Source: Galdieria sulphuraria
Lineage: Eukaryota > Rhodophyta > Bangiophyceae > Galdieriales > Galdieriaceae
Length of the DNA: 37,885 nt
Direction of reading: 5' to 3'
Assembly (NCBI RefSeq): GCF_000341285.1
Contig: NW_005178405.1
Location: 1 to 37,885 of the forward strand
Shown: positions 10,091-23,433 of the stretch, in pieces
How positions within the stretch are numbered: the first letter of the stretch is position 1
Layout of the letters: the number at the start of each line of letters is the position of its first letter
Position numbers and translations under genes: made by a program
The notes under the pieces: model-generated
Told to the model about the DNA's origin: nothing
What the model saw: only the letters and a program-made list of their open reading frames with translations
The model's database searches: none

Positions 10091-13000
10091 ATGCCAGTCC
10101 AACTATCATTCAAAGTACTCAGTCTAAAAAGACGCAAAACTTCTGACTCGGAGTTGAATCAGATGCAACCTTTGAGTTGCGAAGAAACTTCAAATATCAA
10201 GTCCTCTACAAACGTTTTCAACTTTGAGGTTTCCAACTTTCTAAGAGAAGCTATTTTTAAGTGTATAACTGGTAGAAACTCTCTACTGGAAGCAGCAAAC
10301 TTTGAATATAGAACTGTTCCAAGTTTTATTCAACTTCTTGATAAGCTCGATGATAGCTGTAGGGGTTGGTTGTTAGAAGATTGCAAGTTTGTCAACCTTA
10401 ACCTCCCTTGGACACGTTCAAGTCTACTTGGTCACCTTGAAGTATTTTTTACGGAATATCCAAAGTTGTTTGAGCATGTTGTGATATGTCGCTCAGAGAC
10501 AAAGCTTTCTCAACTTTGTGAAGCTTTGAAGAGTTTTTTGAAAACAGTGCCAACATTATCTGCTAAAAGACTACTTTTCCTTCAAGTTGATGATAAGGAT
10601 AGTTCTTCTATACTTGAGTTGTTATCTATTCTTTTTCAAAAAGGATATGGTTCATCATTTCTTTATATAGACTTGGATATGTTTGACTTATCGAAGAGTT
10701 GGACTGTACTAGTCACTTGTCTTCAGTTGATTTCACGAGTTGAGTTTTTTGCGATGAATAGCAACAAAATTTCCAATGAGCAACTATTGATACTTTTGAG
10801 AATACTACACAAGGCCTTTCTTGGTTCTATTCATGCTTCTTTATGTGATCAATGGAGAATACCTCATTTTTTTTATATTTTAGAATTCTGTCAAACGAAA
10901 CAAATATCATTGAAAGCAAGTTTTGATTTTCTGAGTTTGCAATTATTTCGTATTAGCTTTGATGCTTTTGAGCCTTTTTGGACGACAAGTGAAGTTGAGA
11001 TGAATCTTTCGTTGAAATCTATTAGTTCAGAAGGAGCGCAATATTTAAGTGAAGCATTGAAAGTCAACAATACATTGACTGAATTGGATATTCGTAGTAA
11101 TAACATTGCGTCAGAAGGAGTGCAATATTTAAGTGAAGCATTGAAAGTCAACAATACATTGACTAAATTGGATATTCAATAATAATAACATTGCGTCAGA
11201 AGGAGTGCAATATTTAAGTGAAGCATTGAAAGTCAACAATACATTGACTAAATTGAATATTGGTGATAATAACATTGAGTCAGAAGGAGCGCAATATTTA
11301 AGTGAAGCATTGAAAGTCAACAATACATTGACTAAATTGGATATTCGTAGTAATAAGATTGCGTTAGAAGGAGTGCAATATTTANAGTGAAGAATTCAAA
11401 GTCAAACAAAACATTGACTGAATTGGATATCAATAATAATAACATTGATTCAGAAGGAGTGCAATATTTAACTTTGAAGCTATTGAGAAAGTCAACAATA
11501 CATTGACTAAATTGAATATTCGTTATAATAACATTGCTTCAGAAGGAGCGCAATATTTAAGTGAAGCATTGAAAGTCAACAATACATTGACTAAATTGAA
11601 TATTCGTAGTAATAACATTGCGTCAGAAGGAGCGCAATATTTAAGTGAAGCATTGAAAGTCAACAATACATTGACTGAATTGGATATCAATAACAATAAC
11701 AATGCGTCAGAAGGAGTACAATAGCAAAAGTGAACGCATATGAAAGTCGAATCAAGACATTGACTAAATTGAATATTGGTTATAATAACGTTGATTCAGA
11801 AGGAGCGCAATATTTAAGTGAAGCATTGAAAGTCAACAATACATTGACTAAATTGGATATTCGTAGTAATAAGATTGAGTCAGAAGGAGCGCAATATTTA
11901 AGTGAAGCATTGAAAGTCAACAATACACTGACTAAATTAGATATTAGTTATAATAACATTGATTCAGAAGGAGCGCAATATTTAAGTGAAGCATTGAAAG
12001 TCAACAATACATTGACTAAATTGGATATTGGTTATAATAACATTGCGTCAGAAGGAGTGCAATATTTAAGTGAAGCATTGAAAGTCAACAATACATTGAC
12101 TAAATTGAATATTCGTCGTAATAACATTGATTCAGAAGGAGCGCAATATTTAAGTGAAGCATTGAAAGTCAACAATACATTGACTAAATTGAATATTAGT
12201 GGCAATGCAATTCCGTCAGAAGATATACGAGCAAAAATTCACCCATATTTAAAGCGTAATCAAGAGCGATTGGCAAAGAACAAAACTTCTTTTCATGCTT
12301 GTAATATCGATGTATCTTCTACTCAACTAGCTTTGAAAAACCAAGTGTCAACGCAACAACAAACCAACTCGATGGAATTTTTTATTAGCTTAGACCAAAC
12401 TTATTTACGATACAAGAATACGGTTTGGAATGAAAGTACATTGTTGTTTATCATATATATGCAACATCGAAGACTTGAATTATTTGACTCAGGTTTTCAG
12501 GCAATGATTTATCCACCATATGAAATGATGACTTATTTCGTAATGGATGCTTCAAACCAAATGGATATTCGAAAGCTGCCCGAGTACTTTGAAACGGATG
12601 ATTTTATTTGTTCTATTTGTTGCTTTATCTGCAATCATCCTTTTTGTTCGGAGAACTGTAGCCATGTCTTTTGCCAAGGTTGCATTGAAAGTTGGAACAA
12701 AACAACTTGTCCAACATGTCAAACAGTTTGTACGAATTGGAAATATTCACCCCTTGCAGAGAATTTTATTTTAAAATTACGTTTGCGTTGTCCTCTTGAA
12801 TGTGGTTGGCATGGAACCTTAATGGATTATGAAAAGAATCACAAAACAATTTGTCCAAATGAGATGGGTAAATGCAGCTCATGTGACTTGACAATGAAGC
12901 GATCTCAATTTGTCGATTCTCATAATAGAAAGTGTGCTTATCAACTTGTTTCATGTGATTATTGTTATTGTGACATTCCATCGTCGTTGCTTGCTGCTCA

Positions 13001-13268
13001 TATTGCTCATGAATGTGCATCAGCTCCCATTGTTTGTAGTGCTTGTAAAGGTTTCTTTCTGACATGGCATTCTTGGAAGCTTCATATTGAGAAAGAATGC
13101 GAGAGAGTATCGGAACGATGTGACTATTATGATTATGGTTGTACAGAATACTTGGAGCGAGGTCATTTGAAGAAACATGAAACTGAAGCAATAGCTTATC
13201 ATCTTTGTTTGTTAAAAGATGCTCTTCAAAAGACTCGACAAGAAGTCCGTTGCCAAAGTCTATTTTAA
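10091..13268 (+). CDS. LRR - RING - TRAF-type zinc finger protein (frame disturbed in repeats)
   Basis: Probable E3 ubiquitin ligase-like protein. The N-terminal part (about 300 residues, 10091-11000) has no recognised domain. It is followed by 14 ribonuclease-inhibitor-type leucine-rich repeats of 28 residues (GAQYLSEALKVNNTLTKLDI), a short linker, a RING-like finger (CSICCFICNHPF, NCSHVFCQGCIESW, CPTC; about 12605-12720) and Cys/His-rich TRAF-type zinc fingers to the stop (about 12780-13190). The reading frame is open on both sides of the array, but within 11170-11760 four 84-bp units carry 1, 2, 5 and 5 extra bases and one base is N (11385). The net shift is +1, so the frame does not recover. 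As these changes cluster beside an N inside near-identical repeats, sequencing or assembly error is likelier than a true pseudogene. An alternative ATG lies at 10073 in another frame and soon stops. Confidence 0.7.
11003..12215 (+). repeat. Tandem array of about 14 LRR-coding units, 84 bp each
   Basis: The core CAATATTTAAGTGAAGCATT recurs starting near 11039, 11123, 11208, 11292, 11376, 11462, 11551, 11635, 11719, 11808, 11892, 11976, 12060 and 12144. Spacing is exactly 84 except 85, 86, 89 and 89 around the disturbed units (11376-11808). Intact units are nearly identical at the DNA level; they differ mainly in the few codons around IxxNNI. This indicates recent expansion or ongoing homogenisation. 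Confidence 0.9.
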
Positions 13269-20730: not shown

Positions 20731-23433
20731 ATGATTTGTCAATACAAGTCATTCACATTTGTTCTTTCTATAGAGTTGATCATGGCCATTGCGGTTATCG
20801 GAGGAACGGCATTATTGAAAAGCAACTTGTTTGCTCATTTCCAACCAAAGCAAATAGAAACCAAGTTTGGAAAAGTTATCTTATATGTGGATGAACAACA
20901 TAACTGCTTCTTTTTGCAGAGACATCACGCTGATGTGTCCCTTCAAGGGGCCTACAGTCTACCTCACCTCATCAACCACCGTGCCAACCTGGTTGCCTTG
21001 TCACAATGCGTAAGTTGATTCTGCCACTTGGACTCAACTTGTGTTCATCATCTGTATATAGAAAGTTCAATCCATTATTGCTATTTGCTCCGTAGGAAGT
21101 TTGAAGCCTACCCTTGCTCCTGGTACTATCGTCGTGCCCAACGACTTTGTTGCTCTATTCTCTCCTCCCATCAGTGTATTTGATGACAATCAAAGTCATA
21201 TAGTGCCTGCAATTCATCCAAATTGGAGAGAGAATATCATTTCAGTATTGCAACAACAACAAGGAGTAAAGATTTCAACTAGAGGAGTATATGTTCAAAC
21301 ACAAGGACCTCGTTTTGAAACTGCTACCGAATCCTTATTTCTCAGCCAACTCGGAGACGTGGTCGGTATGACTGCAGCAACAGAAGCCGTATTAGCGAGT
21401 GAATTGGGAATACCTTATGCTATGGTATGTTCGGTGGATAACTATGCCAATGGAATAGCCTCGCAGACCCTTTCTACACAAGATTTTCAATCAAGTGTAA
21501 TACAACATCAAAAACATGTGGAAGAAATAGTTAGTTATTTGGTCGATTATTTCGTAGGTAAGCCAAATGAATCATTGTATTTCGATAAATAGCAAGAATA
21601 TTTCCAGGTTCATCTTCTCGCAATCCATCTGCACTTGTATCACCCGTTACTTTGGATACTAGAGAACTTGTAGATGTTATCATTCATGCGCAATGGATCA
21701 TAACAATGGATGACCAAAGTGCTCTCGTATTGCCAAGTATGAAGAAAAATAATCATTCTATGGAATGCTATTTAAAGGACCATTCTCTTGTCATACATAA
21801 TGGAATCATTCAGCATATCTTGCCTTTTGAAATAGCTCAAAAGAGCTATCAAGCAAAAGAACAAGAATATCTAGACAATCATTGTCTATTGCCAGGATTC
21901 ATCAATGCTCATAGTCATGCAGGGTTGGCTTTCTTTCGTGGAATGAAAGAAGAACAAAATTTGAATAAATGGCTAAGAGAAACTATTTGGCCTATGGAAG
22001 ATGCCTATTTACCAATCTATTTGAGAGATGCTACTTTTTTGGCTGTTGCTGAAATGATTAGAAGTGGTATTACTTGTTTCAATGATATGTATTGGATTCC
22101 AAGAAATACTTGTGAAGTAGCAACACAAGTTGGCATCCGTGCTATGGTAGGAATAGTTGCGATAGAATTTCAAAAAGAGTGCAACAGCACTTTGGAATAT
22201 ATAGACAAAGGACAAGATGTTTGGCAAGAATTTCAACATTGCGATATTTTGCATTTTTGTTATGCACCGCATGCACCTTATACAGTGAATGATCAAACTT
22301 GGGTAAGTCATGAATATTTCAAGTTACTAGACAGTTTCAACCATTGGGCTTTTGTATCATGATAGCAAGTGATCATCCAAAGGAGCTTATCTAATGGTCT
22401 ACCCATTCATACGCACCTTCATGAAACCAATGAAGAATGTGATGCATCGATGAATTTGGATCGGGTATGGATATCGTTCTTATATATGTTGTCATTATTC
22501 CGAGTTGTGAATATTCTCTTTCTGTGTGTTGTTAGCAATCCTCTGTTTGTCACTTGTCTGAAAGTCCTGAAAGACCTTTATCTAATTTGAAGAAACTGGG
22601 TCTGTTGAACTGTCATGTCATTGCGGCACATATGGTAGAAGTGAATAGAGAAGAATTAGAATGGCTTGCTACTTGTAAGCAGTTTCATGTAGTGCATTGT
22701 CCTACATCTAATATGAAATTGGTAAGTAGACTATATCAGTTATACAAATAAACCAAACAAGACTCGAATAGGGTTGTGGATTTTGTCCTATTGAAAGATT
22801 ATTGGATGCTGGAATCAACGTGGCATTAGGAACGGATAGTTGTGGAAGTAATAATTCGTTGGATATGCTACAAGAGATAAAGACCGCAGCTTTGTTATCC
22901 AAAGGACGAACCAAAGACTCAACAAGCGTTCCTGCATATGGTTGGTTTTAATTGTTGCTTTCATTTAAATATTCAATAAGTGGGTAAAAATGGAATAGAA
23001 GCGCTATCTATGGCAACGAGTCGTGCAGCTCGAGCCCTAGGTTTAGAAGATAGAATAGGAAGTCTTACTCGTGGAAAGGCAGCCGATGTTATTGCAATAG
23101 ATCTTAAGAGCTTTGTCGAAACAAGTCCAGTAAGCGAATTATCTTTTATGCAACAGACAAGTTGACCCTACTGAGGTATACAATCCGATGTCTTCTATTG
23201 TTTATTCAGCCAAGCGAGAACAAGTAACTGATGTTTGGGTACAAGGAAGAAGGCTATTGAAAAATCGAAGTTTGACCACTCTGTCCTTGGAAAAAGTCTT
23301 GAAACATGTCGACAGGTTATATTATTCTACTACAAAGCTTCATATTATACTGACAATGGAGTGGGTCTTAACTAGGTGGCAAGAGTTTCTTGCCAGTCAG
23401 TCAAGTGTCGAGAAAGTTGGCAACCATAAGTAA
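20731..23433 (+). CDS. Fused methylthio-purine-nucleoside phosphorylase / MTA-SAH deaminase
   Basis: Bifunctional protein of 756 aa in nine exons: 20731-21009, 21062-21557, 21608-22302, 22366-22464, 22536-22721, 22772-22940, 22981-23129, 23176-23315, 23376-23433. Residues about 18-258 are a purine nucleoside/MTA phosphorylase: AIAVIGGTALL, HLINHRANLVAL, ICSVGSLKPTLAPGTIVVPN, TQGPRFET, VGMTAATEAVLASELGIPYA. Residues about 275-756 are an amidohydrolase of the MTA/S-adenosylhomocysteine deaminase type with all metal ligands visible: PGFINAHSHAG, PIHTHLHETNEE, VIAAHMVEV, VALGTDSCGSNNSLDM. Deaminase followed by methylthioinosine phosphorylase is a known two-step bacterial route; here both are one chain. 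Intron 2 falls exactly at the domain junction. The start at 20731 could instead be 20782 (MAIAVIGG). The seventh intron must end at 23175 (46 nt) to keep the frame. Confidence 0.9.

Follow-up and report, generated by a model that had tools for sequence, protein, structure and literature searches.

A spliced gene of Galdieria sulphuraria joins a phosphorylase to an MTA/SAH-type deaminase in a putative bifunctional methylthioadenosine-salvage enzyme

5'-Methylthioadenosine (MTA) is a by-product of spermidine synthesis, and the textbook route for its recycling in photosynthetic and other eukaryotes is MTA phosphorylase or nucleosidase. The stretch of DNA analysed here (37,885 nucleotides (nt) of the red alga Galdieria sulphuraria, contig NW_005178405.1 of assembly GCF_000341285.1, referred to as the window) carries a nine-exon gene on the plus strand, at 20731/20782-23433, in which a phosphorylase is joined to a deaminase of the MTA/S-adenosylhomocysteine (SAH) type in one spliced frame. 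Its eight introns measure 46–71 nt each and all have GT-AG ends. The spliced translation from the Met at 20782 is identical, letter for letter, to the 733-aa G. sulphuraria protein P0001 of NCBI, the name of which covers the deaminase half only. The initial annotation had placed both domains in one spliced frame at these coordinates with an intron at the domain junction (21558-21607); the match to P0001, from which this intron is spliced out, bears out both points. Exon 7 begins at 22999, as the residues VGKNGI that a start at 22981 would add are found in none of P0001, P0002 and P0003; the Pfam and equivalog scores given below were computed on a model with exon 7 from 22981, that is, with these 6 extra residues. 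The gene is single copy in the assembly (12,045,016 bases in 102 contigs), as searched with 165 aa from exon 2. Its features are the following:

20731..20781, plus strand: possible extension of the N-terminus by 17 residues from Met1, ahead of the NCBI start codon (open frame; P0001 begins at 20782)
20782..21009, plus strand: exon 1, N-terminal part of the phosphorylase domain (TIGR01694 positions 2-73; spliced model, profile match)
21010..21061, plus strand: intron 1, 52 nt, GT-AG (match to P0001)
21062..21557, plus strand: exon 2, remaining phosphorylase domain with GPRFET (E162, 21317-21319) and VDNYANG (N203, 21440-21442; A205, 21446-21448) (alignment, profile, P0001)
21558..21607, plus strand: intron 2, at the domain junction, 50 nt, phase 1 (absent from the P0001 product)
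21608..22302, plus strand: exon 3, linker followed by the beginning of the amidohydrolase, with the NAHSH metal ligands (21910-21918) (profile, alignment, P0001)
22303..22365, plus strand: intron 3, 63 nt (P0001)
22366..22464, plus strand: exon 4, deaminase, HTHLHE (H490, E493) (alignment, P0001)
22465..22535, plus strand: intron 4, 71 nt (P0001)
22536..22721, plus strand: exon 5, deaminase, H538 (alignment, P0001)
22722..22771, plus strand: intron 5, 50 nt (P0001)
22772..22940, plus strand: exon 6, deaminase, D590 (GTDS) (alignment, P0001)
22941..22998, plus strand: intron 6, 58 nt (acceptor fixed by P0001, P0002 and P0003)
22999..23129, plus strand: exon 7, deaminase (P0001)
23130..23175, plus strand: intron 7, 46 nt (P0001)
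23176..23315, plus strand: exon 8, C-terminal part of the deaminase (P0001)
23316..23375, plus strand: intron 8, 60 nt, a multiple of 3 with no stop in frame (P0001)
23376..23433, plus strand: exon 9, C-terminus and stop (P0001)

Both halves pass the gathering scores of their Pfam families, PF01048 (phosphorylase superfamily) with 109.1 against 25.1 bits and PF01979 (amidohydrolase) with 183.3 against 25 bits. The metal-ligand set noted earlier as complete for an MTA/SAH deaminase (H343, H345, H490, H538 and D590 together with E493, in the motifs HxH, HLHE, H and D) is intact in all 21 fused relatives described below; the roles of the HxH, H, H and D ligands and of the HLHE Glu are assumed here to be those of the family. 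The nearest solved relatives of the deaminase half include a named MTA/SAH deaminase and one with bound methylthio-coformycin, and 4f0s, of the same family, holds inosine. The matches listed by a structure search with the whole model span residues 261-720 only, and the search is hence uninformative on residues 1-242.

The base-binding pocket of the phosphorylase half was read from an alignment with solved phosphorylases. This protein has GPRFET and VDNYA where the MTA phosphorylases (MTAPs) 2a8y and 1wta have GPRFST and TDYD, 1cb0 has GPRFSS and TDY as far as shown, and 3ozb from Pseudomonas aeruginosa has GPRLET and VVNPA. Glu162 replaces the MTAP Ser, and Asn203 and Ala205 replace both MTAP Asp residues; the Ser after GPRF and the TDYD of a 6-aminopurine MTAP pocket are therefore absent, and the three letters are those of 3ozb (GPR[FL]ET; N-x-A), as in a 6-oxopurine pocket. 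The initial annotation was mistaken in regarding the pocket as unlike the known types, since its base-contacting positions carry 3ozb-type letters. We take 3ozb to be a methylthioinosine phosphorylase; the PDB calls it methylthioadenosine phosphorylase. Among the 21 fusions, E162 and N203 are invariant, and Ala205 is kept in 19. The VDN motif retains its Asp and Asn in 120 of 120 phosphorylase relatives among the matches listed. At the position equated, from a hand alignment only, with His257 of human purine nucleoside phosphorylase (PNP), His occurs in 0 of 21 fusions, so that the His holding the 5'-OH in human-type PNP is lacking; the residue roles of human PNP (Glu201, Asn243 and His257, the last as holder of the 5'-OH) are likewise assumed. 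Given the likeness to 3ozb and the unlikeness to MTAPs, a 6-oxopurine is the predicted substrate of the pocket, a compound that the fused deaminase would supply, and the missing His suggests that a 5'-methylthio group fits better than a 5'-OH.

A homologue search found the fusion in other eukaryotes as well: 21 of the best 120 homologues (of 3391 passing E 0.001, among 7999 candidates scored) are full or partial phosphorylase-deaminase fusions with the same domain order. They include proteins of G. phlegrea (P0002, 63% identical) and Hondaea fermentalgiana (P0005, 40%), the latter presumably a thraustochytrid, and one from an MMETSP transcript (P0013, 37%); these three share the architecture of the G. 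sulphuraria protein at 37-63% identity, and their source names give one activity at most. The fused architecture is not confined to G. sulphuraria. The same type of phosphorylase also exists unfused in Porphyridium, Rhodella, Balamuthia and Magnetococcales.

In a phosphorylase tree (built without P0014 and P0020, whose phosphorylase parts are short, and without 40 of the 120 phosphorylase homologues, the first 140 residues of P0129 being trimmed) the Galdieria rows lie apart from the non-Galdieria fusions. A single origin of all fusions was rejected in this tree, with p-AU 0.017 for the fused rows held together, in a test of 22 rows (19 fusions with P0121, P0122 and P0127) against 77 that used a quick tree and a group picked after the tree had been seen. 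Independent fusions are not claimed, because in the deaminase tree (without 20 of the 96 non-fused deaminases) the fused and kin rows, together with the free-standing P0038 and P0054, are unsplit by the clade of the other 74 rows. Two deaminases of the same family, P0026 and P0075, have a long N-terminal region that resembles by eye a worn-down phosphorylase; profile comparison of this region with the phosphorylase gave 23.8% probability and E 0.00085 over 55 columns, and a degenerate phosphorylase domain is not claimed for them.

The two domains also occur side by side in prokaryotes. In a scan covering one genome per GTDB species, with two search patterns of which one demanded the Glu, the best 80 of 585 loci were considered, and in 34 of these a deaminase of the same family lies downstream of the phosphorylase on the same strand, in the order of the algal fusion. 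The deaminase HMM match starts 42-184 nt past the phosphorylase stop in 30 of the 34 pairs and 441-1378 nt past it in the other 4. Such pairs, found in Magnetococcales, methanogens, Planctomycetota and others, combine a DN-type phosphorylase with a TRZ/ATZ-type deaminase, the same domains in the same order, but as two genes where the alga has one chain. Glu and Asn are present in all 76 prokaryotic phosphorylase open reading frames (ORFs) that were aligned, the Glu having been demanded by the one pattern, and His at the His257 position in 2 of the 76. That the pairing recurs, as adjacent genes in prokaryotes and as fused genes in distantly related eukaryotes, suggests two steps that go together. 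The algal deaminase half is 44-47% identical to free-standing deaminases (best twelve rows, the named ones mostly from Gammaproteobacteria) and 30-39% identical to the phosphorylase-neighbour deaminases in the 31 of 34 whose alignments are long; the remaining 3 are fragments (63-207 aligned residues, 26-46% identity). Being closer to free-standing than to neighbour deaminases, it indicates that the algal fusion is not simply a prokaryotic-type gene pair run together, and the earlier view of the junction intron as a sign of neighbouring-gene fusion fails on the same comparison. In a Firmicutes metagenome-assembled genome (L100:7962-11432) a phosphorylase, an SAH-hydrolase-like gene (named by eye) and a deaminase stand in a row.

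Exon-by-exon searches of the 12.05 Mb assembly with PF01048 and TIGR01694 (E up to 10) returned no second PF01048 or MTAP-type phosphorylase, and neither profile shows a separate MTAP, PNP or MTA/SAH nucleosidase. Adenosine deaminase was not found either, the single PF00962 match in the assembly being AMP deaminase. HGPRT (contig C38) and APRT (C22; 119.7 bits, 108.7 on one exon) are both present; base salvage was rejected as a discriminator, since a genome with both enzymes does not decide between release of adenine and of hypoxanthine. MtnA is encoded on C41, and the spermidine-synthase family has five exon-level matches, two of which (G000:C2:135040-135414 and G000:C68:51787-52161) have equal scores of 142.1 bits and perhaps reflect a recent duplication. 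SAH hydrolase, to our knowledge nearly universal in eukaryotes, was not found in the assembly with PF05221 (which matched 9 of 14 controls) or PF00670 (14 of 14), all controls being prokaryotic; the missing match could be an assembly gap.

The protein is probably a bifunctional MTA-salvage enzyme that converts MTA to 5'-methylthioinosine (MTI) and MTI to hypoxanthine on one chain. The C-terminal amidohydrolase domain, with a divalent metal bound, would deaminate MTA to MTI, and the N-terminal phosphorylase domain would split MTI with phosphate into hypoxanthine and 5-methylthioribose-1-phosphate. The hypoxanthine would then be rescued by HGPRT, and the 5-methylthioribose-1-phosphate would pass to the MtnA isomerase. 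Salvage by this deaminating route on one chain, as the initial annotation had put forward, is well supported by sequence evidence, because of the pocket, the failure to find another phosphorylase, the eukaryotic fusions and the gene order in 34 of 80 loci; it is unproven as to catalysis, and we infer the substrates, the order of the steps, their occurrence on one chain in vivo and their coupling.

Several observations weigh against this proposal. The equivalog cut-offs were missed for NF006549 (TRZ/ATZ family hydrolase, taken here as of MTA-deaminase type; 482.1 vs 540 bits), TIGR01694 (S-methyl-5'-thioadenosine phosphorylase; 165.8 vs 274.85 bits) and NF006599 (S-methyl-5'-thioinosine phosphorylase; 143.5 vs 223 bits), and the protein is therefore filed at superfamily level, outside the curated equivalog families. 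When the PDB is searched with a 15-member family profile, MTAPs rank highest (2a8y, 166 bits) and 3ozb comes fifth with 151 bits, and the pocket reading combines an alignment with assumed residue roles. No deaminase neighbour was present in 46 of the 80 prokaryotic loci, and in 42 of these the sequence extended 1500 nt or more downstream. With APRT in the genome, salvage of adenine is possible. The assembly may be incomplete, and the exon-by-exon PF01048 search missed exon 1 of this very gene, and short exons could thus hide a second phosphorylase. Acireductone dioxygenase was not found in the assembly with PF03079, a profile that matched 5 of 14 prokaryotic controls; with MtnA present on C41, the lower steps of methionine salvage may be unusual.

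The same data can be read in other ways. General adenosine salvage, in which the fusion would stand in for adenosine deaminase (ADA) plus PNP (adenosine to inosine to hypoxanthine) with MTA as a minor substrate, appears rather unlikely: the lack of matches for a true adenosine deaminase and for any other PF01048 protein in the assembly would suit it, as would a 6-oxopurine signature that accommodates inosine too, yet no fusion has His at the presumed 5'-OH-holding position, and the solved relatives of the deaminase include the MTA/SAH deaminase and the holder of methylthio-coformycin, although 4f0s holds inosine. It is unlikely that the fusion is the only exit for all 5'-thio- and 5'-deoxy-adenosines, with SAH, MTA and 5'-deoxyadenosine deaminated and the inosine products phosphorolysed, a reading prompted by the failure to find either SAH hydrolase (PF05221, PF00670) or MTA/SAH nucleosidase in the assembly; if true, it would mean a eukaryote without SAH hydrolase, in which the fused enzyme or the free phosphorylase could be made according to whether the junction intron is retained.

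That the N-terminal half cleaves MTA directly to adenine, leaving the deaminase for SAH or 5'-deoxyadenosine, for example, would agree with the presence of APRT, with the higher score of the phosphorylase domain against TIGR01694 than against NF006599 and with the MTAPs heading the family-profile matches. This is very unlikely in view of E162, N203 and A205 in place of the S, D and D of aligned MTAPs, and a partner that releases adenine would not explain fusion or gene pairing with an MTA-type deaminase. Most improbable is that the halves exist in vivo as separate proteins, with the junction intron retained in much of the mRNA and the fusion a minor product. With this intron retained the frame ends at TAG 21590-21592, giving a 252-aa phosphorylase from Met 20782. 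In favour of this reading, three close relatives from metagenomes (P0121, P0122 and P0127) terminate shortly past VGK/IGK, as read-in of the intron would have it, and the deaminase P0003 starts at the junction even though P0003, like P0121, crosses other intron sites uninterrupted (those downstream in P0003). Against it, a prokaryotic gene caller reading into the intron yields the same truncated ORFs. Moreover, the NCBI model is spliced through the junction, and fusions occur in distant eukaryotes, one of them from a transcript (P0013). The ends of these four proteins may stem from gene prediction in an intron-poor relative, from separate genes or from intron-retaining transcripts.

Elsewhere in the window, at 10091-13268, two long ORFs were seen by eye to consist of many near-identical leucine-rich-repeat units (LKVNNTLTKLDI-type), followed in the second by a RING/zinc-finger-like part, also recognized by eye.

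Compared with known systems, the predicted MTA-to-MTI-to-hypoxanthine enzyme is closest to the P. aeruginosa pair. Its MTA deaminase, which we take to be PA3170 (PDB 4dyk/4gbd), and its methylthioinosine phosphorylase, presumably PA3004 (3ozb), rank at or near the top among the solved structures related to the algal halves, and 3ozb shares with the algal phosphorylase the pocket letters E and N-x-A; they are two separate bacterial proteins, whereas Galdieria has one eukaryotic chain. In Plasmodium the ADA presumably belongs to a Pfam family other than that of the algal deaminase half. According to PMC6302742, P. aeruginosa converts MTA through MTI to hypoxanthine with separate enzymes, the same two-step route as predicted for the algal fusion. 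PMC3885546 describes this route in Plasmodium, a eukaryote like Galdieria, through separate ADA and PNP, the latter (PfPNP) being a hexamer of family I, as is E. coli PNP. Consecutive steps of methionine salvage are also fused in the eukaryote Tetrahymena (MtnAK, MtnBD), but these are later steps of the pathway carried out by unrelated domains (PMC6302742). The fused form was not found in the open-licence PMC literature, as far as the portions available extend (including PMC5592239, PMC6302742, PMC3885546, PMC3986220, PMC10277263, PMC5067920, PMC5158018 and PMC5988388).

What is new is the fusion, since Pseudomonas and Plasmodium are known to run the deaminating route on separate enzymes. As no other such phosphorylase was found in the assembly, the way in which the alga recycles MTA could be settled by removal of one gene or by a single assay. 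The finding would put right database entries in which the fused protein is named for just one activity and, if true, would represent a single-chain route from MTA through MTI to hypoxanthine in photosynthetic and other eukaryotes.
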